This document shows, piece by piece, positions 11,716 to 51,654 of a stretch of 53,236 nucleotides of DNA. Under the pieces are notes generated by a model. That model searched no databases, was not told where the DNA came from, and saw nothing but the letters and a program-made list of their open reading frames with translations. The DNA lies in IMG/VR virus record IMGVR_UViG_3300030098_002282, positions 1 to 53,236 of that record; one strand, written 5' to 3'. The position numbers and the translations under genes are program-made. How positions within the stretch are numbered: the first letter of the stretch is position 1; each line of letters starts with the position of its first letter. The DNA comes from a virus.

Positions 11716-14700
11716 TATGCTTCCTCAGTTCCTGCAAAGTAATTAGATGCTTTCATTCCCGGTGGTGTCCAAAACTCTGTACCTTTCTCTTCTTCTTTCT
11801 TTCTCTTGGTAGATATTCTTTTTGCACCTACTATTGGTAGTCCAGTTAATTTGTCTAATCCGTAGTATGGATTCTCAGTTAATCCTCCCGGTCCAACTAA
11901 GTCTCTTGCTAACCTACCAAATGGAAACATTGTCCAAGTATAATAATTAGCCATCTTTTCCCAATCATCATTGATAAGACCATTAAGTATTGGTCCTGTT
12001 AATCTAAATGATGGTGGTGTAATCAATTGTAACGGGGCTAATTTACCGGGATAAGCTCCAAAGAAAGCTCTGTCTCTTTCTTCTTCATTACCAAATAACC
12101 AATCACCTAAGTCTTGAAACCAAGCGTATGGTTGTGGCATTTGTGAGCCAAATAATGAGTACATAAACATAGAACCTAATGCTAATGATAAAGTATCTGC
12201 TATCATTAGTCTTTTAAACCTACCAAATTCAGGGCTTCCTTGACTTATACCTCTTAAAGCCGCCTCTCTAATTATAGTATTTCTATATCTTACACTATTC
12301 CAAGCCCATAATTGGAACCTAGATATCACTTTACCCATAGCAGTGCCAGCAAACATAGGTCTAAATGGTACAGAATACAAAAATTGTGTGGCTTTAACGC
12401 CTTTTTTACCCATTTCTATAAGGTAGGGGTGGTCTTTTGGCAGTGTTCTTCCACCTAATTTATCTCTAGCTTGTATATAATGAGCTATAAATGAGTCTCT
12501 ACGCAATGCTCGTTCAGGTAATGACATAAATTTCCCTGCAACATCCATCATACCTTTACCTAAATTATGTTTTTTCATTAAATCACGAAAAGAAATGTCA
12601 GGTAAGTCAGGGTCTTTCTTTACTGCTCTTCTAAAATCTTTTAAAAATGCTTGCCAATTAGCACCAGTTAATTGTGGGTTGGCACCAATCTCACGAATGA
12701 TAAACTCTTCAATGATGCCAAGCTCTCTTACCCACCTATTAACATCTTCCCAGCTCTTAAACTCTGGGTCAATAGTCTTTCTTAGATAGTCTAGTTTCTT
12801 TGCTTTAATAAAGTTATTAAATCCTGCATTAACAATAGTCATTTGACTACCACCTAAATAGTTACCGATACTTGATTTAGGATGTGCTAATAATGTAGCA
12901 AGTGCATACTTTGCTTCCATATTACCTAAGTTAATAACGGCTTGTGCACTAACTTTATCTAAGGATTTTAATTCAGGTGGCAACCCTTTACCCTTACCAA
13001 CTAGACCTAATTTTCTACCTATCTGGTCAAATCTTGTAGCCACTCTGTTGTCTGCTAATGAACCATATAATGTACCTTTGATTTTCATCTTATCATTATC
13101 AAACATTTCTTTAGGAATAATAGCAGGAAAGCCTAACGATTGTTGTGCGTACAACTTAAAGTAATTCATCCAACTTGTTCTTAAGTCTGTTGGCATATCC
13201 TTATGCTGTTTAGCAAACTCATTAATAGTTTCTCTTGATAATATTTGACCCAAGTTTCTATAAAATGTTTTTGTTATACTTTGAGTATAATCTAGGTACG
13301 CCTCAGGTGCTGTAGACCATCCTTCTATATGATTCTCTCTTGAGAACTGATTTCCTATTCTTTGTAGGTTATCAAACCATTTTATTTCTTCATTAGTTTT
13401 CTTACCTTGTTGCTTTTTTATTATAGCATCAGTTATATGCTCCCAAGTTTCATTAATAATATCTGCTTCAACAAAATCACCTGATAATTGTTTTGATTTC
13501 ATATACAACTTAGCAATCATTTGTTTCTTTTCTGCTACAGGTCTATTGCTTTGCCAAATAATCTCAATCTTTTTTGTTAAATCACCCATCATAATACCTT
13601 TCTCAAAATGTTTTGCAACATGAGGAAAGTATCCATAGATACCGGGTTTGTCTCCAACAGTTTTTAATTCACCAAGCATTCCTGTATCAAAGTTTATCTT
13701 TTTATTAGAAAGTTTTTCTGATAAACCCCCAAGTAACACCTGCCTTATAGGGTTTTTATCACCTGCCAGTCTTTCAGCTTCTCTTATTTGTCCCATCTGC
13801 ATACCAAGAATAATCTTTCTTTGCCCATCCATACCAAGTTTCTCTATTGGGAATGGTTTATTATTGACAAAGTGGTCAGTGACCCACTTAATCATTTTCT
13901 TTCTGGACACTACAGGTATTTCTGTGTTAACAATATTACCTTCAGCGTCAACTGTTGTGTAAAATTCTAACTTATTCCTCTTCTTCTCAACAAATTCTTT
14001 CCAAACTTTCTGGTCACCTACTAATTTCTGGTGATTCTCAAAGTTTTTTAATGCAAGTAATTGATGTATTTCTTCAACTAACTGTCGTGCAGGTTTTCTA
14101 ACACCACTAGTAAGAGTTAGTAATCTATTTTGAGTATTCTCCCAGTCTATTTTCTCAGACATTTCAGCAGTTCTTCTTTCATAGTTTCTAGCATACTCTT
14201 CAGTTAACTTATCTCCTGTTAATGCCCGTTCCCTTAATCGTCTAGGCATATAATCAGATTCAAATTTCATAGCGGCAAAATCCCATAAGTCTCTACCTAA
14301 TTCAGTAGTCATATATGGTTCACTTAAGTTACCCCATTCACGCTCTTCTCTTTGATTCTCCATAGTAGCAACTTCTTGGCTAAGATGAATATTTCTTTGT
14401 AGCTCACCCATCCATCCTTGAGCAGTCTTACCTTTACCTGTTACCCAGTTTCCATGTCTATCTTTATAAATAGTATCAACTGTGTTCCAATTTATCTCAT
14501 GTCTCATTATATCTCTATCAACTGCCTCTGGAAACATTCTATAAAATCTTTTAGCTAGTTTTGGAAACTCTCCTTCAACTTTAGCAAATGTCTTTTGGAA
14601 CCAAGTACCTTCTCTATGGTCTCTAAATATATTATTAACAACCTCCCAGTCCTCTAGAGTCATAGTGTTTATATCTTTGTTTATCATATCTCTTACAATA

Positions 14701-17700
14701 AGATGTAGATTTTCTCTAGTTTGTGGACCATAGTAATCCATATTAGATATAATCTCATTCATTACTTTCTTTGCTTTACTTGACACTATAACATCTTTAT
14801 GTTGTTCTAACTGTGAAAATGGAGCGTAATCCTCTAAATATTTCTGCGTTTTCTTAGAGTAATCATGTTGGTTTATAGCCAAACCTTCTGTTCTTTTACC
14901 TCCCTCATCAAACAAGGGTTGCTTTTTATTCTCAGCCTCCAGATTTTTTGTTATCTGTTTAGCAACCCTCGTATCTCTCCCGGAATCTTCGTACCTAAAT
15001 TGTTCGTACGCTTGCTCCATTAAATCAAGCTGTCGTTTGATTATATGGTCGCCTACTTCCTTGGATGCGAATCCCACTCTATTAAATTGTGTGTTGTGTA
15101 ACTGCCTTGACTTTGTATCTAAATACCTTTGTAAAGCCATATATGATTTATAACCATATTCTTTTTTACTATTATCAATTTTCTTTTTTGCATTTTGTAA
15201 TCTACCTACTATCTCTGGGTCACCTCTTTTCCAACTAGATATTAACATAGCGTCAAATAAATCACTCTCTGCTCTAGTCATCCCATCTTTATACTTTGCA
15301 ATAGCATCATCAAGCTGTCTCTGGTCCATTTCTCTAGTAGTAGTTTGACCCTCTATTGTTCTATCTAATTCAAGAATCATTCTCTTTGTCTTATCATCCA
15401 TCTCTAAATCTTTTAGAGGTTCAAGAGCGTCTCTTTCTTTGTCTTGTTTAGACTTTAATCTTTGTATAGCATCTACTACTTTAGCGTACTCTGCAAACTG
15501 TTCAGGGGGAATAACATCTTTATTCCAAACTTCTTTTAATAATCTAGCACTAGCCCAGTCTCCCATATCATTTGATAAAGAATCACCAGCTAGTTTAATT
15601 ATATTTTCTAGTATTTTCTTTCTAGCGTTTCTAGGAATTGCATCTACACCACCAGCTAATTCGATAATATCACCTTTGGTAATTTTATTATGTGCCTTTC
15701 CAAATAAAGTCCATTGTATTCTTCTTCCTATTTTTTTCTTTTCATGAAGACCAAATGTATTACCTTTTGCACCCATCTTTCTCATGGCTTTATCTACTCT
15801 ATCATTAACTCTAGGTAGTTCAGAAAATACATCAGGGCTTTCATGCATTCTCTTGTATTCATTAAAGAAATAGTCGGGATGCCTAGATAGTAATTCACCA
15901 AACCCTTCATTCCATATAAATTCTTTTCTACTATCTACATTAAATAAATCATATTTTTGAACTATTTCTAATGGTCTATTCTTAGGTATCGTCATACTAC
16001 CCCTACCAAGCAAACCCATTATCTCTTGGTAATCAGTGTTTGATAATGTTTCTTGAACATTCTTATACCAATTATCAAGCTTTGCTCTATCCATACGGTG
16101 TAATAAACTATCTGAAAAATCTAAATCTTTAGTTAAGTTGGCAACTTTTCCATTAAATGAAAGGTCAGTCCTTTCGTTTGGACCTTTTGGAACTTGTTTA
16201 ATTCTATTTATAGACTGAATAAAGTCAAATACATTATGAGCCTTACCAGTCTCTAAGTTCCTACCAAAAGATGCACTATTTATACCAGACATTATGCCTA
16301 CAAATGCTTTCTTTCTCTCTTGAGTTGTTAAAGCTTCATTATCTTTAGTCCATTTTCTACCATCTCTTGCACTATGATGTGTCTTCATCTTAAATAATGA
16401 ATCAAATATAGCATTAAAGAATACATCTGTACCTTTTAATCCAGCTTCATCCATAGGGTCAGATGCAAAAGCAACAGTAGCACGAGCTATTTTTCTAAAC
16501 TTCTTTAAACCTTCCTTGCTTGTAATAGGAGTAAGTTCATACTTTATATTTCCCCATCTATCTATTTCATAATAAGTATCTTTACCTTCAAATTCTAAGT
16601 GTGACCTTACTTGATTATAGGCGGCTAAAATAGAAGACCTATTTACAACAGATGGACCAAGCATATTCCTACCAACATGAGCTCCTGTACTTGCTTGATA
16701 CCTAAGCAATGGTGACCACCTTAATGATGGAGTTTTTATTCTATCTAGCAACTCATAGTCTTGAGAAGTTAACAACTCTTTCATATCTTTAGGTTTATTA
16801 TGAGCAATCTCAGTCAAACCAGTCTTTTTATTTTTTACATAGTACTCTTCTTTTTGTGAACCATAAGCCTCACGCCATTCTTTTTTAAATCCATTCTTTT
16901 CACCACCAAAAAAGATAGATGCTTTATCACCATCTAAATCGGCTCCTCCCAGTGCTTCCATAGTTCTTGGATGTAAGACACTACCAAATCCTTTTCTGCC
17001 CGTAAAGCCCTTAAATTGGAGCTTATGAGCCCCACTGAGTGAGTCCATAGGTACTCTTACTACTACTGCTTCTAATACATCTTCAAATCTTTTCTTAACT
17101 TCTTGGTTTAACCTTGGTTTTTGTAACTGTTCCCATATATAACCCAGTTTTAATGTAGCCCCATCGTCCATATGTATTTTTAAATCACGGAATCCTTCAT
17201 CAAGATAAAAGATACTATCATTCTCATTAAGCTCAGGTAATTTTTTCTGTAGATACTCATCGTAACCTGTCATTCTAGATGTTGCACTATTTCTCAACCT
17301 TGGTTTAACTATTTGAGAAAGTATATAGTTTCTCATAACGCTTTGTCTATAACTATCTCCAACTTTATGTAACAATGGAACAAGTGAATCTGGTTTTAAC
17401 TGAACTATTCTATCAAACACGCTTTGCCACTCCATAGCATCTAGTTTTAAACTGTGTGCATCTTGTGCTGACATCTCACCTTCAGATTGGAGCTCACCTA
17501 CTATCTGGTCATTGATTCTTAAAATTTTATTGTATGCTTTAGTAGCAAAGCTTTCGTGTGCTGGACTATTTATTAAGTCTAATAATTGTCTAATACCTAT
17601 ATCTTCTATATTACTAAGCAACTGTGCTTCAGTCTTAGTATCGCCCGGATTTTTTAATAATGTTTCTGCTAATGTGTTCTGTTCTTTTGTTCCATTAAAT

Positions 17701-20700
17701 GACTCAACACTTGCTCTTTCAAATATACCATCTATAACCCGTTGCTTTATTGGATTAAAGCCAAATGGTGTAAGATTAGATTGCATCTGTTTAGGAAGTC
17801 TTTGTGGTTTGATAAACTTATCACTTGTTATTTCTGATGCTACAACTTTTATATCTTTTACAGGTAATGTGTAACGATGCCTAGTATTCTGACCTGTTGG
17901 ACCAACCAATTTTATTCCTCTACCTGTCCATTCCCACTTATCCCATATATCTCTTTGACCATACTGCTTAGCAGATGATTCAGGTATTATCATTTCAATC
18001 TTTGCTCTTCTCATTGCCTCTGCTTGTGCTTCAGGAGCCGCCTTGAATTGATACTTACCAAGCAATGCTCCAAATTGAGCATCAGGTGAGACTATAAAAG
18101 ATTTATTTACACCACCAGATTTGTCACCATAAGGCAACCCTTGACCAGCATTTAAAGCGTCTACTATCTCAGGTAGTGCTATTATCTCACCATCCATTGT
18201 ATGCACATAATCTTCAGCCTTACTACCAGCGTGTGTTTTTTTATTAACATCTTTAGTTAATACATATCTTATACCCTCTGGTAATAACTGATGCCCAGTG
18301 GCTTCTGAAACAAATTGGTTTACATAATTAGGGTCAGAAGGTATACCATTAGTATGCCATATTTGAGACCTTTTATTATAAGCTTTTGCTGTACTTACAT
18401 TTAAGTTTTCTAGTGTTTCAAATCCTTTCCTACTAAATGGCAATCCATTTTGACTTAAATCGTATAATATATTATTTAAATAAGACCTATCAAATAGTCT
18501 TCCAGCTTGTGCCCTGTTTAATGTGTTGGCTCTTTGAAATTTAGACATAGAAGATTTTGTTGCAAAAGCATCCTGAAACAACTCTTTCTCTCTTTCATAT
18601 AACTTCACTGATTCAGGGTCTTTCTTTTTCATTGTTTCCAGAAGTTCTTTTACAACAGCATTAGGCTTTCTTCTCTTAGTTCCATCTAGGAATTTCATTC
18701 TAGACTGTAACTTTGGGTGTTCTTTTACAAAGTAAAGCCTTTCTGCATCACCCTTACCTCCAAGATACATATACCCAGACTCAGCCATTTGCTTTGTAAT
18801 AGTAGCCATAACATTATTATACTGGGTCTCAACTTCCTTTTCCATCCATTTATCAATAGCTTCTCTTTTAGCTTTCCCTTTTAACTCACTCCATTGTCCA
18901 TGTTCTGCTTCAAGTATTCCAGCTTTAGCCTCAACTTCTTTTATTAAATCCCTTCTCCAATCAGCGAAAGTTTGTTCCTGATAATACTTCCCATTAGCCT
19001 TCTTATTTGTTGTTATATCTTGGACTATTGCATAAACAGGCTCAGTTTTAGGGTCAATTTCAACACCATATCTTTCATAATATTCTCTTTGATATGCTTC
19101 TTCTATATTCTTTACAGGTTCTCTTAATTGCTTTGCGTTTCCTGCTAAATTAACAGCATCAGGTTCTAGATTTGGATTAAGAATATTTAATCTAACATCT
19201 GGGTTGTAATCAATTTCGATATCATCATCTTTAGTTTTTCTTAATCTTTCTTTTGCTGGATTCATATCCATAACAATAGATGCAACCTGAACAGGTTTAT
19301 TATGTATCCTAGCGTTACCCCATTTTACCCAGAATGACCACTCTGGGTCTTCAGGTGACTCGACAATATTCTTTTTAAATCTTTTATTAACCCACTTTAT
19401 CATATTGACCGCAGGATTTTCAGTAGAACCTGCTTGTATATTCTCACCTACAACTTGATTCCATTTTCTATTTATCAACCTCCAAGTATCTTCCATGGCA
19501 GTCTGTGGTTCAGGTGCTTCCTTCCACTGGTCTTCTAAAAATCGCTGTACATAATGCTTTGACTTGGTAAATAAAGCCTCATAACTTTGAGATGAATCAA
19601 TTAACTCAGGACTATTCTCACCATCAGTACCTTTTCCTTCTCTGCTTTCAGTAAGTTCTTCTTCTGGTTTTCTTATCCTCTCTACTGGCTCTCCTTCGTA
19701 TATCTCTTTAGCTTTTGTTTCTGCTTCTTGCATTTCTTTCATTCTACCAAGCTGGTCTCTTGCTAGTATATAACTTATTACACCACCTTGCTCTGCATCC
19801 CTAGTAGTTATTTCTTTAACAAGGTCTTTTGTTTTTGGGTCCATAGTTTCCCAACCCTCAACTAATTCAGGTGATGCAGTACCTCTTGCACCAGTTTCAG
19901 GGTCTTTGTATTGGGTTTTCATTTTATGGAGATGTTCTATAGCTCTCCTATTTTTTATATATTGCTCACCCTGACCAAAGAAAGCACCAAGTAGATAATC
20001 ATATATTTGTTCTTCAGTAGTAGCACCTCTAAGAGTAGCAGGCAATCCCATCATAAGGGAACCTGCAATACCTTTTAAAACTTTCTCATTTACCTGTTCA
20101 CTTGTTAAATCTTTTAACTTAGTTCCGGGTATAATAGGCTTAGCACCGGGTACCCTAATTAAATTACCTATAGCTCTAAAACCTGCACCTGCTATACCAC
20201 CACCTAAAGTAGCATCTGCTACTGCGTGTATACCTTCTTGCCAAGCAGATACACCTGATGCTATACCAAGATTAACTGCACCTTCCATCATATCTCCGGG
20301 TACAGTATTCATAAATTTCTCTACTGTATTAACAGCCTCGCCTTTCTTATTAATACCCTTTTTACTAAGACCTATTGCAGTTTTCTTTATACCACCAGTA
20401 GCCCATTTACCAACCATTAATGGGACAGAATGACCTCTAAGTTTCATTAAGTTAGTAGATAGCTTACTTGCCATACCTAGTTTAGATAGGACTCTTAAGC
20501 CCGGTACATACCCTATAAAGCCACCTAAATGACCAAGACTCCTTGCTATTCTTTCATAGCTAGTACGAGGTTGTTTATCTGCTTCTCCGTGGTCTATGTT
20601 TAGTGTGGTAAAACCTGCTATCCAGCCTTTACCTGCTTGAGACATCAAGCTACCAAAACTATTTTCCCCTAATGAAGTGTCCGGGGAAGACATTTTATAA

Positions 20701-20828
20701 TGCTCAGCGTGTTCTCTAATCAACTCAGATTGAGTATAATCGAACTGATTAGGGTCGCTTTTATATTGGTCTACTAGTTGAGCAGTAGTTTGCTCATCTA
20801 TGGTAGGTTCAAAACCGTACCTTACCAT
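11715..20828 (-). CDS. Giant virion protein with RNA-polymerase-like active-site motif (candidate virion RNAP)
   Basis: A 3037-residue protein, 17 percent of the genome. Around residues 1265-1310 it reads like the second catalytic double-psi beta-barrel of cellular RNA polymerases: R.PMDSL, a basic strand, HPRTMEALGGADLDGDKAS. Asp1297, Asp1299 and Asp1301 of ADLDGDK match the metal-binding NADFDGD site of RpoC and the DFDxDK form in crAss-like virion polymerases. About 370 residues earlier, a DGE (Asp879), a G.NKSF strand and LLGKYQFK (Lys925, Lys929) could be the first barrel. The C-terminal third is helical with hydrophobic segments (SLALGSMFMYSLFG), as in ejected proteins. The neighbours are internal virion proteins. 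The polymerase role is inferred from motifs only. Confidence 0.7.
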   Translation of the reverse strand: MVRYGFEPTIDEQTTAQLVDQYKSDPNQFDYTQSELIREHAEHYKMSSPDTSLGENSFGSLMSQAGKGWIAGFTTLNIDHGEADKQPRTSYERIARSLGHLGGFIGYVPGLRVLSKLGMASKLSTNLMKLRGHSVPLMVGKWATGGIKKTAIGLSKKGINKKGEAVNTVEKFMNTVPGDMMEGAVNLGIASGVSAWQEGIHAVADATLGGGIAGAGFRAIGNLIRVPGAKPIIPGTKLKDLTSEQVNEKVLKGIAGSLMMGLPATLRGATTEEQIYDYLLGAFFGQGEQYIKNRRAIEHLHKMKTQYKDPETGARGTASPELVEGWETMDPKTKDLVKEITTRDAEQGGVISYILARDQLGRMKEMQEAETKAKEIYEGEPVERIRKPEEELTESREGKGTDGENSPELIDSSQSYEALFTKSKHYVQRFLEDQWKEAPEPQTAMEDTWRLINRKWNQVVGENIQAGSTENPAVNMIKWVNKRFKKNIVESPEDPEWSFWVKWGNARIHNKPVQVASIVMDMNPAKERLRKTKDDDIEIDYNPDVRLNILNPNLEPDAVNLAGNAKQLREPVKNIEEAYQREYYERYGVEIDPKTEPVYAIVQDITTNKKANGKYYQEQTFADWRRDLIKEVEAKAGILEAEHGQWSELKGKAKREAIDKWMEKEVETQYNNVMATITKQMAESGYMYLGGKGDAERLYFVKEHPKLQSRMKFLDGTKRRKPNAVVKELLETMKKKDPESVKLYEREKELFQDAFATKSSMSKFQRANTLNRAQAGRLFDRSYLNNILYDLSQNGLPFSRKGFETLENLNVSTAKAYNKRSQIWHTNGIPSDPNYVNQFVSEATGHQLLPEGIRYVLTKDVNKKTHAGSKAEDYVHTMDGEIIALPEIVDALNAGQGLPYGDKSGGVNKSFIVSPDAQFGALLGKYQFKAAPEAQAEAMRRAKIEMIIPESSAKQYGQRDIWDKWEWTGRGIKLVGPTGQNTRHRYTLPVKDIKVVASEITSDKFIKPQRLPKQMQSNLTPFGFNPIKQRVIDGIFERASVESFNGTKEQNTLAETLLKNPGDTKTEAQLLSNIEDIGIRQLLDLINSPAHESFATKAYNKILRINDQIVGELQSEGEMSAQDAHSLKLDAMEWQSVFDRIVQLKPDSLVPLLHKVGDSYRQSVMRNYILSQIVKPRLRNSATSRMTGYDEYLQKKLPELNENDSIFYLDEGFRDLKIHMDDGATLKLGYIWEQLQKPRLNQEVKKRFEDVLEAVVVRVPMDSLSGAHKLQFKGFTGRKGFGSVLHPRTMEALGGADLDGDKASIFFGGEKNGFKKEWREAYGSQKEEYYVKNKKTGLTEIAHNKPKDMKELLTSQDYELLDRIKTPSLRWSPLLRYQASTGAHVGRNMLGPSVVNRSSILAAYNQVRSHLEFEGKDTYYEIDRWGNIKYELTPITSKEGLKKFRKIARATVAFASDPMDEAGLKGTDVFFNAIFDSLFKMKTHHSARDGRKWTKDNEALTTQERKKAFVGIMSGINSASFGRNLETGKAHNVFDFIQSINRIKQVPKGPNERTDLSFNGKVANLTKDLDFSDSLLHRMDRAKLDNWYKNVQETLSNTDYQEIMGLLGRGSMTIPKNRPLEIVQKYDLFNVDSRKEFIWNEGFGELLSRHPDYFFNEYKRMHESPDVFSELPRVNDRVDKAMRKMGAKGNTFGLHEKKKIGRRIQWTLFGKAHNKITKGDIIELAGGVDAIPRNARKKILENIIKLAGDSLSNDMGDWASARLLKEVWNKDVIPPEQFAEYAKVVDAIQRLKSKQDKERDALEPLKDLEMDDKTKRMILELDRTIEGQTTTREMDQRQLDDAIAKYKDGMTRAESDLFDAMLISSWKRGDPEIVGRLQNAKKKIDNSKKEYGYKSYMALQRYLDTKSRQLHNTQFNRVGFASKEVGDHIIKRQLDLMEQAYEQFRYEDSGRDTRVAKQITKNLEAENKKQPLFDEGGKRTEGLAINQHDYSKKTQKYLEDYAPFSQLEQHKDVIVSSKAKKVMNEIISNMDYYGPQTRENLHLIVRDMINKDINTMTLEDWEVVNNIFRDHREGTWFQKTFAKVEGEFPKLAKRFYRMFPEAVDRDIMRHEINWNTVDTIYKDRHGNWVTGKGKTAQGWMGELQRNIHLSQEVATMENQREEREWGNLSEPYMTTELGRDLWDFAAMKFESDYMPRRLRERALTGDKLTEEYARNYERRTAEMSEKIDWENTQNRLLTLTSGVRKPARQLVEEIHQLLALKNFENHQKLVGDQKVWKEFVEKKRNKLEFYTTVDAEGNIVNTEIPVVSRKKMIKWVTDHFVNNKPFPIEKLGMDGQRKIILGMQMGQIREAERLAGDKNPIRQVLLGGLSEKLSNKKINFDTGMLGELKTVGDKPGIYGYFPHVAKHFEKGIMMGDLTKKIEIIWQSNRPVAEKKQMIAKLYMKSKQLSGDFVEADIINETWEHITDAIIKKQQGKKTNEEIKWFDNLQRIGNQFSRENHIEGWSTAPEAYLDYTQSITKTFYRNLGQILSRETINEFAKQHKDMPTDLRTSWMNYFKLYAQQSLGFPAIIPKEMFDNDKMKIKGTLYGSLADNRVATRFDQIGRKLGLVGKGKGLPPELKSLDKVSAQAVINLGNMEAKYALATLLAHPKSSIGNYLGGSQMTIVNAGFNNFIKAKKLDYLRKTIDPEFKSWEDVNRWVRELGIIEEFIIREIGANPQLTGANWQAFLKDFRRAVKKDPDLPDISFRDLMKKHNLGKGMMDVAGKFMSLPERALRRDSFIAHYIQARDKLGGRTLPKDHPYLIEMGKKGVKATQFLYSVPFRPMFAGTAMGKVISRFQLWAWNSVRYRNTIIREAALRGISQGSPEFGRFKRLMIADTLSLALGSMFMYSLFGSQMPQPYAWFQDLGDWLFGNEEERDRAFFGAYPGKLAPLQLITPPSFRLTGPILNGLINDDWEKMANYYTWTMFPFGRLARDLVGPGGLTENPYYGLDKLTGLPIVGAKRISTKRKKEEEKGTEFWTPPGMKASNYFAGTEEA

Positions 20829-39662: not shown

Positions 39663-41078
39663 TTACGCCCACTTCAGAATAGCGTGAGTTTCAGGAAGTT
39701 GAATCTCTAAACCGGCTTCGGTTAAGACGATATCTTTTCTTCCGTCCACATTGTTATTCTGAACATTGGTTATAATATGTGTATCACGATTGACACCATT
39801 ACCGGCTAATGGGCGATAGTTAACATTCTTCATGTCAACCATAACCGCATAATCTTCGTACATACCTCTAAATAAAGGCTCTGCAACAAAGTGAAGATTA
39901 CCATAAATGGTATTAACTGTAGATACATTGTGACCAAATGCACCCTTCACATTCTGAATATCAAGTGCGTAGGCATTAGAACCACCGTTGGTGGTTGCTG
40001 TATGTCCTAGTGCAACTGTGTTACCCAAGAATGAGTCAGCACCGAGTTTGTTTAACCAAGTGATAACTTTCCTTGAAGCAAGTACAAGTTTATTTCCACT
40101 GTTACCAGATTCTGGTGCGAAAATATCTTCCATTGCTGTTAGGAAATCATCGTAGGTTGAACTAGCATATGTAAAAGATTTAATCTTTCCATACCTCTCA
40201 GTATAAGGCAAGATTCCCCAAGAGCGTCTTACAGGACCAGTTGATGTAGAATCATCAGAGCCAATACCAAACAGCATAGCGTGTTCGATATCCATCTTAT
40301 GTTCCATTAACTTTTCCTGCCAAACTCTCTTGTACTCATCAGCCTTACCACGATAGCGTGTAGCCATTGCGGTACCTGAGAACATAGGTATAGCAGTTTT
40401 AAAAATCTGTACATATCCTTCACGGTCGTACATTTCGTCCTTCCAACCTTCAGGGTCAGTACCACCTTCTGCGAAAGCACTACCAATTACCTGACCTTTA
40501 CCATCTGCTTCCACTTTAATCTTCGAAGCGTTAGCAGGTGTAATTGCACCTGTTCCCGGCTTTGAAAGTGAAATAAATGAAAGGACAAGTCCTGAAGCGG
40601 CGGCATCCCCTGCTAAATCAGGGTCTGCGTCTATTTTGAATGTTGCGTGATGCACATCTGTGGCATATGTACTACCATCTGAGGCATACTTACATTCAAC
40701 TTGAATTAACTGGTCTTTTAACAAGAACAGTGGTTGAACTGCTGTTGACACAGTCCGTCCATATTTGTCATAAAGACAATCAACTAATACCTTATCGTTA
40801 GAAGCGTAGGCAAAAGCCCCACTTGAATAAGCGGCGGCTACTTCGTTAGTTGTCTTAATCTCAAAGTTACGGCGTTGCCATTGATGACGCTGTTCCAAAA
40901 ATTTGAATACAGGGTCATCCGTGGACTTCTTAGCAACTTTTGAGAGATAGACAAAGAATGGAGACTGGGCTGGTGCCAATTCAGCAACTCTTTCACCGAA
41001 GTTATACATCCGTCTACTATCATTGATAGAAGAAGATTGCATTGCTCCTCCGGCATTTATGCTATATTGATTAGCCAT
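39663..41078 (-). CDS. Major capsid protein (HK97 fold)
   Basis: A 471-residue protein placed after portal and scaffold genes, the standard position. The N-terminal segment (RMYNFGERVAELAPAQSPFF) and the C-terminal segments (PLFRGMYEDYAVMVDMKNV, ITNVQNNNVDGRKDIVLTEA) match the family of large HK97-type capsid proteins in marine and SU10-like phages. Codon use is richer in CGT/CGC arginine codons than in the replication genes, which fits high expression. The start has AGGAG inside a hairpin (41082-41096). Confidence 0.9.
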   Translation of the reverse strand: MANQYSINAGGAMQSSSINDSRRMYNFGERVAELAPAQSPFFVYLSKVAKKSTDDPVFKFLEQRHQWQRRNFEIKTTNEVAAAYSSGAFAYASNDKVLVDCLYDKYGRTVSTAVQPLFLLKDQLIQVECKYASDGSTYATDVHHATFKIDADPDLAGDAAASGLVLSFISLSKPGTGAITPANASKIKVEADGKGQVIGSAFAEGGTDPEGWKDEMYDREGYVQIFKTAIPMFSGTAMATRYRGKADEYKRVWQEKLMEHKMDIEHAMLFGIGSDDSTSTGPVRRSWGILPYTERYGKIKSFTYASSTYDDFLTAMEDIFAPESGNSGNKLVLASRKVITWLNKLGADSFLGNTVALGHTATTNGGSNAYALDIQNVKGAFGHNVSTVNTIYGNLHFVAEPLFRGMYEDYAVMVDMKNVNYRPLAGNGVNRDTHIITNVQNNNVDGRKDIVLTEAGLEIQLPETHAILKWA

Positions 41079-42074: not shown

Positions 42075-44225
42075 CTATTTTTTGCCAGCATCTTTCTTCG
42101 CTCTTTTGATTTCAGATGCTATTTCACTAGTAGCGTCATCAAGTCTTTTCTCATATAAGGTTCCTGCGGCTTTTGCACGGTTAGAAGTCTTATCGAGGTC
42201 AGCCTTGAATTTTTCAACTTCAACTCTTTGCTTGAGATTGACATTTTCTCTATCTCTAGTTTGCATATCACCTTGCAATTGTTTAATCTGTTCTTCAGCA
42301 CCTTGCAATTGTGATTGTAACTGTTCAATAGTATCAGTTCTTGTAAGAACACCTTCGACATCAAATATCTCAGTTTTCTTTAGAACTTCTTCTTTGTCTA
42401 TGATGCCATTCTTATAAGCATCCATATACATCTCGAGTTGAGCAAATCTATTTGTAGGTAATGTAGAACCTGTAACTATTACAGCATCATACCTACCAAT
42501 TCCTATGTCGTTCCACTTTTGTACTGAATCAGTAAAGTCGTCATAGTAATTTTTATTTATTAAATATTCGCTGGTCGTATTGTTAGGTTGCACCAGACGG
42601 ATAACTTTTTCTTCTTGGTACAATTGTTGCATAAGTGGGATTGCAACAGCACACACCCGACTCAGACCAGCTTCGATATCAGCTAATTTTGACTTTATCT
42701 TTCTTTGACCGAAGTCATCAATAGATACAGTTGCCTTATAAGTATGAGGGGCGGCTTGAGAATTACCCATCATTAACTCATATAGTCCTAGCTGATGGTC
42801 AATGTCTGATTTAGCAGTTTGTTCGTTTTGATATAACTCATTAGGTAGTGGAAGAGGTTGAACTGGCTGTGGTGCTCCTTGGTCAAAATCAACCTCTATA
42901 GCAACACCGGGTTGAGACCATTTAGATTCAAACTCTCTCATGTCAACAGAACCTGCTGGGACTAAAATTTTTACATTTGTACTTGTAGTAGCGTGTGCAA
43001 TTATCAAAGACCGTGTCTTATTTATATATTCTTGCATATCCTTACACATTCTAATATCAGACATCGGATAAGGTGTCCTAGTGTGGATATTCATAAAAGG
43101 CACTATTGGATAGTGCTCAATTGGAAGAACTCTTTTATAGAGGAGTTGGTCTCCCATAACTACTACTTGACATACTCTGCATACATCTATTTGAACAACC
43201 TTAATTAAACCCTCTTTTATAAACTGACCTATGGTAACTTGTTCTATTGTAGGCTCTGGAGGAAGCTCGTTAGGTGGAACACCTTGTTGTTCAGCTTGTT
43301 GCAACATCTGAGAATGAGCTTCTAATAGTTTTTGCATAGTAAGTTGAGCAACATCTTTGCGAACAAAAGGTCTTCCTTCTATTAACCAAGCAGGTTGTTG
43401 TATATAGTTCTCAAATTCGTCATCTTCCATTACCGCTTCCCTACCAGTAAATGTTTCATGAATACGATATCTTTTAACTATCATCTTATAATATCTTTCA
43501 TAACCTCTTACATATTCTGAACTATTACCAAGAGCATTATCGGTCATTGTTTCAGTATCTTCTGGAAAAATAGCCTTACCATCATACTCTCTTCCAGTAT
43601 TAGGTCTGTCAGATGTCCTATCTGATGTAGCATTCTTTATTTTAGTATCATACATTGGATACATTTTTTGAGCCTGTTCTTTAGTGAACATTCTTGAAAC
43701 AATGATATTCTCTGCATCATCGCAGAATCTGTCTCTTGAGTTAGGGTCAATATATACATCTAACGGGTCTATATCCTTTATGCAAACCTCACCCTTTGAA
43801 TTGTCTTTCATTGGGTCTTGATAACACATCATAATTCCCATACCTGAGACATAGTAATCATCAACAACATTCCTTAGTACGCTTACCCCATCTGATATAT
43901 CCCACATATAAGCGAGTAATCCATTTATCATTTGAGCAACTTGGTTATCACTATCCTCTCTAGGTGATACCCTGAATTGAGGGCGATTAGCAGTTAGCAA
44001 AGCCTTAGCCATTTCAACTGCAGGATGAAGCCTATTTACTACAATTGGAGCTTGACCACGCTCTTTTAATACACGAGCTTGCTCTTTTGTCCATTGTTGT
44101 CCTAATCTAAATTCTCTATCTTCTTGAGCTTGGATAGCCCATTTTTCACGGTTATTAGAATAGTCCGTAAACAGTTTTTGGGTGGATTCCACCAAATCTT
44201 TAGGGGATTTATTTTTCTCAGCCAT
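42075..44225 (-). CDS. Portal protein (P22-like)
   Basis: A 716-residue protein matching the P22 portal type: an N-terminal DREFRLGQQWTKEQARVL segment, NRLHPAVEMAKALLTANRP, DVYIDPNSRDRFCDDAEN (the typical DP.S) and a C-terminal coiled coil from about residue 600 (barrel). It forms the dodecameric ring for DNA passage and docks the terminase encoded next to it. Twenty-four bases separate it from the terminase gene. Confidence 0.9.
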   Translation of the reverse strand: MAEKNKSPKDLVESTQKLFTDYSNNREKWAIQAQEDREFRLGQQWTKEQARVLKERGQAPIVVNRLHPAVEMAKALLTANRPQFRVSPREDSDNQVAQMINGLLAYMWDISDGVSVLRNVVDDYYVSGMGIMMCYQDPMKDNSKGEVCIKDIDPLDVYIDPNSRDRFCDDAENIIVSRMFTKEQAQKMYPMYDTKIKNATSDRTSDRPNTGREYDGKAIFPEDTETMTDNALGNSSEYVRGYERYYKMIVKRYRIHETFTGREAVMEDDEFENYIQQPAWLIEGRPFVRKDVAQLTMQKLLEAHSQMLQQAEQQGVPPNELPPEPTIEQVTIGQFIKEGLIKVVQIDVCRVCQVVVMGDQLLYKRVLPIEHYPIVPFMNIHTRTPYPMSDIRMCKDMQEYINKTRSLIIAHATTSTNVKILVPAGSVDMREFESKWSQPGVAIEVDFDQGAPQPVQPLPLPNELYQNEQTAKSDIDHQLGLYELMMGNSQAAPHTYKATVSIDDFGQRKIKSKLADIEAGLSRVCAVAIPLMQQLYQEEKVIRLVQPNNTTSEYLINKNYYDDFTDSVQKWNDIGIGRYDAVIVTGSTLPTNRFAQLEMYMDAYKNGIIDKEEVLKKTEIFDVEGVLTRTDTIEQLQSQLQGAEEQIKQLQGDMQTRDRENVNLKQRVEVEKFKADLDKTSNRAKAAGTLYEKRLDDATSEIASEIKRAKKDAGKK

Positions 44226-44249: not shown

Positions 44250-45749
44250 TTACATCGTCATCCAGTCAAGTACTTTCTTTCCAAATCCTTCTTGTTCATC
44301 TATTTTAACAAATTCTTTTCTCCTGCTTGGTCTTGAACCATCTAAAGCAGTCCATACTGCATCCATTACATCGTCATGCTTACCTCTAGGATATGATAAA
44401 AACTCTGATTGTGCCTCAATATCTTGAGGTCTAAAGAAAAATTGTTTTTTTGCAAGAAGTGGGACCATCGAAAGTAATCGCTCTGATTTTCTATTTCTGG
44501 GTTTAACGCCTTTCTCCAGTCCGGGGATGTATAATCCTTCTTCTTGCATTTGTTTTCTAACAGCACTTCTTAGTGCTTCTTGATAGGCAACGGTTTCTAT
44601 TTTCATTCTTTTGGGTTTATATTTTTTATATTGCTTAATAATAGCATCAGGTTGTTCAGCAGGGTCGATTTTTGTTCTAACCAAGTTTATCATATAGACA
44701 TTACCCTCGTTACATATCCCTAATGTTGCAATAACAAAAAAGTCAGCTTTCAATGATAGGGAAGATGCTGGGTCTACACCAGAGTATACTGCTACTGGTT
44801 TCAACTCTTCCTTATCGTCAGGTAATTTTTTAACAAGTAGAGCCTGTCCATCTCTAATCTCAAAATCATAATGATGTATCTGGATGTATTCAGGTTTAAA
44901 TGGAGAATCTTCAGGAGACTGTGCTATATTCATATACTCCTGATAGAAGCCATTAAGATTACCTACACTGGCAAACTCGTCTTTTATTTGTAAAATTCTC
45001 TCTCTAGGGAATCTTGCTTCCCATAAGCTTTTTTCGTCATCATCCCATATAGAATACCACAGAACATCCCAAGCAGGTGATTCTTTAGCCCAGCATAAAA
45101 AACAATCTTCTGAGATAACTGTGCCAATCATCGCAATTCTACCATCATCGCTTAATGATGGTATAACCGCTTCGGTTATCCATTTACGGTTCTTAGCTCT
45201 AGCTTCAGGAGTAAATGCGTTCAGCTCTGATTCAAAATCGTCAATAATGATGAGATTAGGTCTAGTGTCACCCTCAATAAATCCCCTAACTCGTTGACCA
45301 GTGCCCACAGCAATAATACGAGCACCATTTGCAAGAATAATATCATTATTAGTCCACCTACGAGCAGTGGAAGGACCCATGTCCCCAAAGTTTTCTGAGA
45401 AGGTTTTAGAATGTGAAAGATGATATTTTATCCTAGAGAGAAAGTTGACAGATTGGCTTTGACTTTCTGATATAATAACGATGAATAAGTCTTCATCTTC
45501 GGATTTAAATGCGACCTTCCATAAGGGGTAAATGAGAGAAACAGTAGTAGACTTAGCAGTGCCACGGGGAGCCGCAACCAAAAGCCTCCGCTTAGCCTCA
45601 TTCCTAAGATGGGAATATAGTTCAGTGTGAAAAGGAGGAATATCCCTGTTAAGAGCAGTAGGGAAACACACTTTCCCAAAAAGACCAATACTTTCCCTAA
45701 ACTTCTTAAGAACCTGAAGTTTCTGATATTTCTCCTCGTAATTCTCCAT
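44250..45749 (-). CDS. Terminase large subunit
   Basis: A 499-residue motor. Walker A is in LLVAAPRGTAKSTTVSL, Walker B is LIIIDDFESE, and the nuclease domain shows its acidic residues in SGVDPASS and DDVMDAVWT. It packages DNA into the head and cuts it, with the small subunit encoded just upstream, which it overlaps by 44 bases. The order small subunit, large subunit, portal, scaffold, capsid is standard. Confidence 0.95.
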   Translation of the reverse strand: MENYEEKYQKLQVLKKFRESIGLFGKVCFPTALNRDIPPFHTELYSHLRNEAKRRLLVAAPRGTAKSTTVSLIYPLWKVAFKSEDEDLFIVIISESQSQSVNFLSRIKYHLSHSKTFSENFGDMGPSTARRWTNNDIILANGARIIAVGTGQRVRGFIEGDTRPNLIIIDDFESELNAFTPEARAKNRKWITEAVIPSLSDDGRIAMIGTVISEDCFLCWAKESPAWDVLWYSIWDDDEKSLWEARFPRERILQIKDEFASVGNLNGFYQEYMNIAQSPEDSPFKPEYIQIHHYDFEIRDGQALLVKKLPDDKEELKPVAVYSGVDPASSLSLKADFFVIATLGICNEGNVYMINLVRTKIDPAEQPDAIIKQYKKYKPKRMKIETVAYQEALRSAVRKQMQEEGLYIPGLEKGVKPRNRKSERLLSMVPLLAKKQFFFRPQDIEAQSEFLSYPRGKHDDVMDAVWTALDGSRPSRRKEFVKIDEQEGFGKKVLDWMTM

Positions 45750-46573: not shown

Positions 46574-46813
46574 TTAATAGTCCCTCATGTAGCCATCGTT
46601 GCTATATTTACCTACCCTTTCTTCTAATTTAAGAAGTTCAGTTGACAAATAAACACAGGCGTCTAATAGTTCCTCTAATGTCTCTCTAATCATATTTCGT
46701 CCATCCTCAAACTGCATTTCCTGTTTATACTTCTTTTGACCAACTTCTAGTCTATCAGCTATTAGCTTTACAATTTTTTCATTAGTACCTTTTATTACAG
46801 TAAAATCAGACAC
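46574..46813 (-). CDS. MazG-like or nucleotide-pyrophosphohydrolase-like small protein
   Basis: A 79-residue protein. GTG 46813 was chosen because AGGAGG lies seven bases before it. The helical core (KLIADRLEVGQKKYKQEM, then IRETLEELLDACVYLSTEL) resembles small phage MazG-like/dATP-dGTP pyrophosphohydrolase proteins, which have Glu-x-x-Glu and a downstream Asp on helices. The match is partial; a helical scaffold of other function is possible. It overlaps the endolysin gene by eight bases. Confidence 0.6.
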   Translation of the reverse strand: MSDFTVIKGTNEKIVKLIADRLEVGQKKYKQEMQFEDGRNMIRETLEELLDACVYLSTELLKLEERVGKYSNDGYMRDY

Positions 46814-47288
46814 GGACCGCCCTCCTGAACCATCCATACCAGAATTTCTCTTGTTTTTCGTCTTTACACACTATCTCAGCAAACTTTAGTACTCTATAAG
46901 CCCTAAGTCTCTCTGTTTCTAGCTTTTTTATAGCCTTTAATGTCTTAGGACCTACAAAGCCATCCACTACAACACTGTCTTTATACTTACCATTGATAGC
47001 GTGTTGGAGTACTCTACCAGCACCCCTTGGTCCAAAGTTGACAACCATATCAAAATACAACTCTTGTAGCCTTTCTGGAACAAGATATGCCTTTGATGGT
47101 TTCCAATACTTTTCGTGATATATATAAGTAGCCCTTTCCTTCGTTAGATTCTTTATATCCTCCTCAGGAAAAGCTCTTCTAGAGATTCCCATATTAGTTT
47201 CTCCCCCTTTATCTGTGGGGTCATCAACATATCCTCCCTCGTGATGAAGAACTGTCTCTATTATCCTTTCAAAGTTCTCTGAATACAT
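46806..47288 (-). CDS. GH108 endolysin (N-acetylmuramidase)
   Basis: A 160-residue lysozyme with the GH108 signature at the N-terminus: HHEGGYVDDPTDKGGETNMG, with Glu17 of HHEGGY as the catalytic acid. A PG_binding_3-like C-terminal half (VVVDGFVGPKTLKAIKKL) follows. There is no signal peptide, so it would need a holin; small membrane proteins at 28449-29336 are candidates. This size is usual for endolysins of phages of Gram-negative hosts. Confidence 0.9.
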   Translation of the reverse strand: MYSENFERIIETVLHHEGGYVDDPTDKGGETNMGISRRAFPEEDIKNLTKERATYIYHEKYWKPSKAYLVPERLQELYFDMVVNFGPRGAGRVLQHAINGKYKDSVVVDGFVGPKTLKAIKKLETERLRAYRVLKFAEIVCKDEKQEKFWYGWFRRAVRV

Positions 47289-47740: not shown

Positions 47741-47992
47741 CTAAGGTCTATTAGCTAGTGTGTCAAGTGTTTTTGGTACTATTTTTAAATTTTCATACTC
47801 CATATGGTACCAGCAGTACTTTTTTCCTTCCTTTAGGTCTAGAAACCAGTGTTCTGCTCCATCACTAGAAATTATCTCTTGAAATATAGTATTAACCACC
47901 TCACCCTTTTCAAAAATCGGGTTGACAGGTTCCCCTTTACCAAGAATCCCTCCAAAAATAATACAAAATAACGATATTGTAACGATTTTCAT
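47741..47992 (-). CDS. Small secreted or periplasmic protein (83 aa)
   Basis: The N-terminus (MKIVTISLFCIIFGGILG) is a typical signal peptide or anchor. The mature part has a short strand-rich domain with Trp and one Cys (HWFLDLKEGKKYCWYHMEY). It is the first gene of the minus-strand late block and has no ribosome site. A TATAAT sequence lies eight bases before the ATG, so it may be read from a nearly leaderless mRNA. The role is unknown; a lysis or superinfection-exclusion role is conceivable. Confidence 0.6.
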   Translation of the reverse strand: MKIVTISLFCIIFGGILGKGEPVNPIFEKGEVVNTIFQEIISSDGAEHWFLDLKEGKKYCWYHMEYENLKIVPKTLDTLANRP

Positions 47993-48020
47993 AGCATGAA
48001 ATTATAAAGATAAAACCGTT
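47993..48020 (-). promoter_or_regulatory. Candidate minus-strand promoter of the late block
   Basis: On the minus strand TATAAT occupies 48006-48001, eight bases before the ATG of the 47741 gene. The only TTGACA on this strand is 29 bases upstream, too far for a sigma-70 pair. If used, the transcript would begin two or three bases before the ATG. It may instead be part of a phage-polymerase promoter. Confidence 0.35.
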
Positions 48021-48232
48021 GAAAAAAGAACCATTTGTCAAAACTAAAACTAGAATGGGAGTTCTTGATATACACCAGCGTGCACCCCGTCAAGTTTCAC
48101 TTGGTAGGGGGTCCACTTAGGTTGAGAGTTAGCACATATAGTATTATGTCACACATCATAGCTTAACAGCACACTATCATAGGCTGGTAATACACTAGCA
48201 CTAGCAGTGTGCTTACTATGAGTGTACCATAC

Positions 48233-48287
48233 AGGCATTGTCCTTATATGTACTATACCTACACCCTATGCCTACAGGAATAAGGAC
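48233..48287 (+). ncRNA. Candidate pseudoknot within the divergent region
   Basis: AGGCAT (48233-48238) pairs with ATGCCT (48268-48273), and GTCCTTAT (48240-48247) pairs with ATAAGGAC (48280-48287). The order is a, b, a', b', an H-type pseudoknot with stems of 6 and 8 bp. The two stems could also be alternatives. Confidence 0.45.
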
Positions 48288-48539
48288 TCTTTCGTAGACA
48301 TACGGCTCGGCTAACTCCAAGGCTCGTCCCTCGCTCACCCTCAGTGTACCTATCCTACCTAGTACTACCGTACTAGTAAACAAGTAAAACTCTAGCGGTG
48401 CACGAACGCACTCTCTTCAGTCGTGCTCTGGGTTAGATGACCTGTCCCCTACTTGCTATCAGCAATAGATTTGTTCTATTAATTGTGGTGTTTCCTCAAT
48501 TCAATAGACCAATGACTTGCAGTCGTATCCCTGATACGC

Positions 48540-48570
48540 CGGCTCATCGGACTAGCCGTTGGAATAGTCC
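48540..48570 (+). ncRNA. Compact H-type pseudoknot upstream of the 48597 gene
   Basis: CGGCT (48540-48544) pairs with AGCCG (48554-48558), and GGACT (48549-48553) pairs with AGTCC (48566-48570). Loop 1 is catc, the two stems abut with no linker, and loop 3 is ttggaat. This is the classical geometry of regulatory pseudoknots. It ends 26 bases before the ATG. Confidence 0.5.
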
Positions 48571-48596
48571 ATTATAACTGTAATACAGGATAAAGC

Positions 48597-48923
48597 ATGG
48601 CTTCACCTTTGTTAGAATGTACCATTTCCAATACATTCGCAGGTAGTCGCAAAGCTGTCAATGGTGTTATGACATTCGTTCATAAAACCGACAGCGATGG
48701 CAACCGTATCCGTACTAACAGTCTTAAAGTCACCTGTTCACAGAAGAGCAAATTGCCAGAGATTCTCTCGGCAAAGCGTATTCGCTCTGCTGTTGACCAG
48801 ATTGACAACCTTAAGGCTGTCCCGGATACTGACTACCGTAGAGCAAGTGAAATCACTGTCTTCGATGACACTAAATCGCATTCTGCGGTTTATAAACCGT
48901 TACCGAAGAAAGTGAAAATCTAG
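48597..48923 (+). CDS. Unknown protein with high-expression codon use (108 aa)
   Basis: A 108-residue basic protein (pI clearly high; ends PLPKKVKI). I do not recognise its family. It looks beta-rich at the start (LLECTISNTFAGS, VMTFVHKTDSDG) with a helix in the middle (KRIRSAVDQIDN). Six of its seven Arg codons are CGT or CGC, whereas replication genes mainly use AGA; the capsid gene has the same bias, so strong expression is likely. It stands alone between a structured leader and a strong terminator, with AGGA before the start. It is probably an abundant early protein, perhaps one that targets the host. Confidence 0.7.
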   Translation: MASPLLECTISNTFAGSRKAVNGVMTFVHKTDSDGNRIRTNSLKVTCSQKSKLPEILSAKRIRSAVDQIDNLKAVPDTDYRRASEITVFDDTKSHSAVYKPLPKKVKI

Positions 48924-48966: not shown

Positions 48967-49017
48967 AAAGGATTCGTGACTCACCTCGGGGTGAGACATT
49001 ATCGAATCCTTTTTTTT
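48967..49017 (+). terminator. Strong Rho-independent terminator after the 48597 gene
   Basis: GGATTCG (48970-48976) pairs with CGAATCC (49003-49009), with an inner CTCACC/GGTGAG stem, followed by eight T's (49010-49017). A smaller hairpin formed by ACTAGCC with GGCTGGT just upstream includes a plus-strand T-G pair. Confidence 0.85.
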
Positions 49018-51107: not shown

Positions 51108-51400
51108 AAGGTAAAGGTGAAAACTATGAAGTTAGACAAATTTCATGGTTTAAAACAAAAAAGGTCACTATTAGTGGCGAAAGAAGAGAAGTTCCTATAT
51201 TATGGGAAAAGAGACTGATTGGTATTTATCCAACATACGATGAATCGTTATTTATCTTGAGAAGGACTCAGGGTAATTACAGGAAGGAATGCGGAAAGCA
51301 AGGAATAAAACCAATTGCTCGATTTACCATTAGGAAGACGGGCTTAAAGCCCACAACCAGTAGCGTAGGAAACTACCTACAAAGCACAGGAGGTCATTGA
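51083..51400 (+). CDS. Unknown protein directly upstream of the Ubl gene (105 aa)
   Basis: A 105-residue basic protein with a beta-rich core (WFKTKKVTISGERREVPIL, LIGIYPTYDESLFILRR). The stop codon TGA overlaps the ATG of the Ubl gene (TGATG), so translation is coupled, and the Ubl ribosome site AGGAGG lies inside its last codons. It is a candidate partner of the conjugation system, but no motif (no RING or cysteine pair) supports an E3 role. ATG 51083 has a weak site (GAGGGC). Confidence 0.6.
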   Translation: MVATEPKLEGKGENYEVRQISWFKTKKVTISGERREVPILWEKRLIGIYPTYDESLFILRRTQGNYRKECGKQGIKPIARFTIRKTGLKPTTSSVGNYLQSTGGH

Positions 51401-51654
51401 TGGCTGAAGTACGCTATATGGCATACCACACAGGTGGTGTTCCTAAGACTGTAGATGCGTCTACCCCTGCTGAGATTGCTGAAAAAGAAGGATTTGGCAT
51501 TGACGATTCGCAAGTTGCGATTTATGTCGGTGGGAAATCTGCGACAGCTAATACTCGTCTTAAAGACGGGCAAGTTGTTTCTTTTCAGAAAGCTAGGCAA
51601 GAGTCTGGGAATGATAAGGTAAAAACTTATCTTGTCAAAATCCGAAGAGGTTAA
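51400..51654 (+). CDS. Ubiquitin-like beta-grasp protein with C-terminal glycine
   Basis: An 84-residue protein. ATG 51400 is preceded by CACAGGAGGTCATTG; the TTG at 51397 is not needed. The order of elements matches a beta-grasp fold like ThiS/MoaD/ubiquitin: strand (VRYMAYH), strand (PKTVDA), helix (TPAEIAEKEGF), strand (QVAIYVGGKSAT) and a final strand after a turn (TRLKDGQVVSFQKA). A further tail ends KIRRG, similar to the RLRGG end of ubiquitin but with one glycine. No processing would be needed to expose the glycine. E2-like, JAB and E1-like genes follow. Several CGC/CGT codons suggest strong expression. Confidence 0.7.
   Translation: MAEVRYMAYHTGGVPKTVDASTPAEIAEKEGFGIDDSQVAIYVGGKSATANTRLKDGQVVSFQKARQESGNDKVKTYLVKIRRG

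Follow-up and report, generated by a model that had tools for sequence, protein, structure and literature searches.

Background

To our knowledge, few large structured RNAs have been described from phages, and GOLLD and ROOL, which are among them, have no known function. Both are large phage RNAs which are often found near tRNA islands and which form cages, and the structure of ROOL is ornate and complex, with pseudoknots among its elements (PMC12286853). Candidate structured RNAs of the human microbiome were surveyed in 2021 (PMC8040213).

The locus described here lies in a virus record of 53,236 bases, the whole of which was analysed and is referred to below as the window. It is well supported that a gap between two divergent gene blocks of this record encodes a conserved structured RNA, and that this RNA is read from the minus strand. 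The folded RNA, which runs leftward for about 390-400 bases, matches no family of Rfam 15, and at the syntenic gap its long-range helices are maintained by compensatory changes in more than 12 uncultivated relatives.

Results

Genomic setting and relatives

A gap of 604 bases (47993-48596) separates the open reading frame at 47741-47992 on the minus strand from that at 48597-48923 on the plus strand, and it is the point of divergence between a leftward structural block and a rightward block which runs on across the contig ends and includes replication genes. The gap is gene-free, and no conserved open reading frame was found in it across the relatives, in agreement with a first-pass annotation of the sequence which had described gene-free DNA between divergent operons. 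The same annotation had remarked on a base composition unlike that of the flanks, and this holds as well, at 43% GC against 36% in the left flank and 35% in the right; the raised GC extends across p108, the first rightward gene (43.6%). No tRNA genes were found in the window. The contig ends (1-100 and 53137-53236) repeat one another with mismatches, which suggests circular or redundant ends. Elsewhere in the window, an open reading frame of 3037 amino acids (11715-20828, minus strand) was checked as a possible giant virion protein or polymerase and has no Pfam or PHROG match, and a JAB-domain protein (701-1636), a ThiF/E1-like protein (1476-2339) and an 85-amino-acid protein (51397-51654) whose TGS-like (beta-grasp) match is weak and sub-threshold form a possible ubiquitin-like set, which is perhaps related to PRTRC genes.

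Relatives were collected with a p108 search, which returned L001 and L002, with a sequence pattern from the gap, which returned L003 together with a hit in L006 that was rejected as a chance match within a coding frame, and with a terminase search, which returned many more. A pattern composed of a P1 strand and the adjoining box (ATATACAYNNGCRKGYACCCC) matched 16 viral contigs, every one of them in this phage group. Clade A consists of the window, L003, L008, L002, L009 and L017/L001, the last being a composite, joined for the gap only, of two contigs with an identical overlap of 129 bases, and clade B consists of L020-L030 and L095. The syntenic gap is common to all members of both clades. 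Searches of the phage records with the DNA and with p108 gave no isolate relative, the best terminase match among those listed has about 28% identity, and p108 was not found in the searched genome contigs (genome_contigs); the relatives are uncultivated contigs.

Table 1. Features of the gap and of the neighbouring genes, in window positions
Feature	Position	Strand	Remarks
Capsid protein	39663-41078		leftward block
P22-like portal	42075-44225		leftward block
Terminase	44250-45749		leftward block
Endolysin	46806-47288		leftward block
p83	47741-47992	-	83-aa ORF, first leftward gene after the RNA; relatives in L002, L003, L008, L009
Conserved box AGAATG-N9-GATATAC	48052-48073		adjoins P1 end; single copy in window
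Core structured RNA	48079-48466	-	P7 hairpin (5') to P1 closing strand; compensated helices, strand asymmetry, fold z; both transcript ends putative
P1 3' strand	48079-48086	-	pairs with 48397-48404
P2 3' strand	48093-48103	-	pairs with 48381-48391
P3 3' strand	48126-48133	-	pairs with 48310-48317
P4	48134-48264	-	long variable branched arm, predicted from RNAfold and partial pairing counts; length and sequence vary
P5 arm	48265-48305	-	conserved GUAUGUCUACGAAAG block, kept in nearly all members
P3 5' strand	48310-48317	-	pairs with 48126-48133
P6 hairpin AGUAC-GGUA-GUACU (RNA sense)	48361-48374	-	stem fully compensated in most lineages
P2 5' strand	48381-48391	-	pairs with 48093-48103; 11 columns, most changed on both sides
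P1 5' strand	48397-48404	-	RNA CGUGCACC; pairs with 48079-48086
P7 hairpin UUGCU-GAU-AGCAA	48453-48465	-	near-invariant in clades A and B; likely near RNA 5' end
P8	48476-48507		variable long hairpin; differing sequences still pair in window, L003, L001
P9 hairpin CGTATC-NNT-GATACG	48524-48538		stem invariant in four members
H-type pseudoknot	48540-48570		directly upstream of p108; six lineages keep full pairing in each stem
p108	48597-48923	+	108-aa ORF, first rightward gene; possible TTG start at 48609

Fold of the core and compensatory change

RNAalifold, when applied to clade B alone, yielded a closed domain, and the same helices were then found in clade A with different bases (Table 1). 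P1, for example, is formed by CGTGCACC/GGTGCACG in the window and by CAGGTACC/GGTACCTG in other members. Tandem G.A pairs occur in P2 in clade B, L009 and L017/L001, and in the P6 stem of L003; the P6 loop varies among GGUA, GGCA and GGAA in the minus sense. P5 is closed in clade B as GUCUAC-GAAA-GUAGAC, while its pairing in clade A is less certain. The counterpart of P7 is TTGCAC-CCTA-GTGCAA on the plus strand in L009, and in L040 it has, as read from the sequence in the leftward sense, a GNRA-type GCAA loop. Compared to dinucleotide shuffles, the 345-nt core fold has a z of -4.3 on the plus strand and -5.9 on the minus strand.

The counting of paired cells was carried out on a hand-curated, gap-free alignment of 12 sequences (A6), because the full MAFFT alignments (A2 and A5) misplace P2, shifting it by one column between clades; the helices in A6 were picked by eye, and bulged bases were omitted in L17c, L009, L021 and L025. 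In A6, 90.6% of the cells are paired compared to 72.4+/-1.3% in shuffles, the double-change cells number 75 as against 25.7+/-3.9, and the covariation score is 0.571 compared to 0.229+/-0.019, with none of 500 shuffles reaching the observed value of any of these measures; given the choice of helices by eye, the omitted bulges and the kinship of the sequences, the shuffle counts are not to be read as probabilities and it is the effect size which carries weight. The number of further pair types is not above that of the shuffles (451/500). If the helices are slid by 1-3 columns, then the paired cells fall to 27-41%. When the 3' arms were permuted among lineages, pairing equal to that observed was reached in none of 20000 permutations for P1/P2, for P2 and for P6, and in 29 and 168 of 20000 for P3 and P1, respectively.

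The covariance analysis of homologous phages that the first-pass annotation had proposed has thus found compensation in the closing helices, and the judgement offered there, that a plain divergent promoter would not account for so much structure, is supported by these compensatory changes. The long-range helices which close the domain, and which provide the strongest evidence, did not figure in that annotation, nor did the strand of the core. The element evolves fast enough for strong covariation.

Strand of the core

On the minus strand, the A6 helices comprise 326 Watson-Crick, 22 G.U, 2 A.C and 20 G.A pairs, many of the G.A pairs being the tandem pairs in P2, whereas on the plus strand the same helices comprise 22 A.C and 2 G.U pairs, with C.U replacing G.A. 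A strand-neutral aligner applied to P1-P3 gave 3 G.U against 23 A.C on the plus strand. The fold z of the minus strand is below that of the plus strand in 9 of 10 members, and the P5 loop is GAAA in the minus sense. Because of the asymmetries between G.U and A.C and between G.A and C.U, the GAAA-type loops and the fold z, the core is most likely a leftward RNA, and it therefore points to the block which contains endolysin, terminase and portal rather than forming a leader of the rightward p108. The plus strand had first been assumed to be the sense of the core, as a rightward leader, and was dropped on the two pair counts and the fold z. The strand can thus be read from the wobble and G.A asymmetry, a reading which changed the interpretation here.

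Elements to the right of the core

The first-pass annotation had described two pseudoknots, one of which is retained. The stems of the pseudoknot at 48540-48570 keep pairing with different bases, and 2 of 720 permutations equal the observed pairing, which is the minimum possible for stem S2 because L020 and L028 share S2; every pair is Watson-Crick, so that this pseudoknot gives no strand signal. It is lost in the L021 group, and it is read as a separate element, which probably belongs to the leader of the p108 mRNA. At 48233-48287, in contrast, the interleaved stems are rejected: in the close relatives L008 and L003, the pairing of both GTCCTTAT/ATAAGGAC and GGCAT/ATGCC is disrupted, and no compensating change restores it. 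These stems compete with the P5 hairpin, which relatives share in part. P9 appears as GTATTC/GAATAC in L020/L023 and is missing from L021/L028.

The identity of p108 is 79-81% in L001/L002 and about 50% in clade B, and the protein has no match in Pfam, NCBIfam or PDB and no significant match in PHROG, with the result that an assignment as a coat-like protein of single-stranded RNA phages, or as another known protein, was rejected. In L009, its place (4000-5600, minus strand) is taken by a different, longer open reading frame whose C-terminal end resembles p108, and which is a possible distant homologue. A terminator-like hairpin with T8 follows p108 (48970-49017), and its internal loop, GTGA ... 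ACATTATC, is conserved in the window and L002; in L009, L020 and L028 the hairpin is branched, its GTGA/TATC sides being similar, and this hairpin may be a binding site for a protein or an RNA. Upstream of p108 in L020 and L028, a short palindrome on the plus strand carries the ribosome-binding sequence in its loop; in L028 this palindrome precedes the ATG as TAATTAAT-AGG-ATTAATTA, and it might control p108 translation.

Box, promoter and terminator signals

The box which adjoins the end of P1 occurs once per record in six of eight related records (G001, G002, G004, G006, G007 and G008). Its spacing is fixed and it does not covary, and it is therefore more likely to be a DNA site than a part of the fold; it could be a rightward promoter, in which case p108 would have a long leader antisense to the core RNA. 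Scans for consensus promoters and terminators gave numbers in line with chance, and no clear sigma-70 promoter was seen near P7 on the minus strand. A T-run with a weak, terminator-like stem is present in clade A and in some distant relatives but missing from clade B; a T-rich stretch lies at about 48020-48035, and p83 is immediately preceded by a TATAAT-like hexamer in several members.

More distant phages

At a terminase identity of about 70-73%, phages have a folded stretch at the same spot, which is a shorter element. Several of these distant stretches have a closing helix, and they adjoin GTATATC-N9-CATTCT and a T-rich tract; their fold z ranges from none to -7, and their strand signal is mixed. 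When the P1-P5 part was made into a covariance model (R1), it recovered known members only and left the distant short forms unmatched, and the likeness is therefore one of place and layout, which does not imply homology. The lengths of natural members run from about 115-190 nt in the short forms to about 540 nt, a range which makes a minimal version testable.

Discussion

Possible roles

The explanation which is considered best, though we hold it with somewhat less than even confidence, is that the core is a cis-acting leftward leader of the late block, or a short RNA ahead of that block, its function being one that we infer. What suggests a read-through leader is that the element lies ahead of the late block, has a leftward sense and, in clade A, has an end rich in T. 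Transcription would start just left of p108 and proceed leftward, and the resulting core of about 390 nt, bounded by P7 (48465) and by the strand that closes the long terminal helix P1/P2 (48079), would carry the P5 and P6 hairpins, the P3 helix and the variable branched P4 arm. Such an RNA would lead, or precede as a short RNA, the block with the genes for endolysin, terminase, portal and capsid. It would most likely act in cis, folding while it emerges from RNA polymerase, and the polymerase would stop or read on into the late block near the T-rich stretch, as is the case for the late leaders of phages and for antiterminator RNAs of the put type. The mechanism is put forward as conjecture, since there is no consensus promoter near P7 and the terminator is weak.

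If the core were instead a stand-alone noncoding RNA acting in trans, working in the manner of GOLLD or ROOL, then it would be a discrete leftward transcript which folds independently of the downstream genes and perhaps assembles. The size, the long closing helix, the GNRA-type loops, the tandem G.A pairs and the variable arm on a conserved core fit this reading, and the T-run of clade A and the hexamer before p83 would part the RNA from the late genes; the missing Rfam match, the lack of a tRNA island and a weak terminator which is absent in clade B weigh against it, and it is regarded as unlikely. A wider proposal, which is doubtful but somewhat more probable, is that the element represents a class of large phage RNAs not described before, which Rfam search does not relate to GOLLD and ROOL. 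At the hub of a whole uncultivated phage group, such an RNA would serve as a stand-alone machine or in a replication origin, and its arm varies in length and sequence while the closing helix and the single-copy box stay.

An origin of replication, in which a leftward RNA or single-stranded minus-strand DNA would fold to prime or load replication beside the AT-rich stretch, has analogies in ColE1 RNA II and in single-strand origins. The T/A-rich tract and single-copy box at the RNA end are in keeping with it, structured single-stranded DNA of the minus strand could also tolerate GT and GA pairs, and the cumulative GC skew has its global minimum at 48601; gene direction switches at this point, however, and because the switch alone accounts for the minimum, the skew is not decisive for an origin, which is judged distinctly improbable. 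A rightward 5' leader that controls p108 translation, in which the box would serve as promoter and the pseudoknot would lie close to the ribosome-binding site, would explain the fixed spacing of the box, the A-rich sequence upstream of it, the covarying pseudoknot directly before the start codon and the z of the P8/P9/pseudoknot segment, which is lower on the plus strand in L001 and L009. Such a leader would nevertheless have to accommodate the A.C and C.U pairs and the weaker z of the P1-P6 domain on the plus strand, and the L021 group keeps p108 though it has lost the pseudoknot; as an account of the core, it is very doubtful. Hairpins that arose by chance between divergent promoters would match the unconserved pairings at 48233-48287, but they are scarcely credible as the source of helices which are compensated in 12 sequences beyond all 500 shuffles and which come apart when slid.

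Comparison with known RNAs

With the Rfam 15 models, those of GOLLD, ROOL, introns and ribozymes included, neither the window nor any of 14 locus records from relatives gave a match at the gathering score, and relaxing the threshold to E up to 10 gave only chance matches. This was the outcome of the Rfam search which the first-pass annotation had called for, and the resemblance to GOLLD and ROOL proposed there remains one of setting: that the locus encodes a structured phage RNA is supported by compensation, while membership of either class is not supported. The earlier observation is in this sense partly confirmed and its interpretation partly supported. GOLLD is like the present element in being a large folded noncoding phage RNA, but many of its members exceed 800 nt compared to about 390 nt for the core, and its covariance model is unmatched here; that the window has no tRNA is supportive only, since GOLLD is described as 'often' near tRNA islands. 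The ROOL model is likewise unmatched, and the element is not near a tRNA island in the window; among 12 relatives scanned, a single tRNA was found, in L063.

The phage group in which the element occupies a regulatory hub is represented here by uncultivated contigs only. By its position ahead of late genes, the element resembles the late leader of lambda, in which 6S RNA, a transcript of about 194 nt, belongs to the pR'-tR' region where Q antitermination acts. This is an analogy of position only, and no Q-like gene was identified here. The put sites of HK022, at about 65-70 nt, are far shorter than the core; put RNA is likened to the core in that it, too, is structured, opens a phage operon and acts in cis on RNA polymerase.
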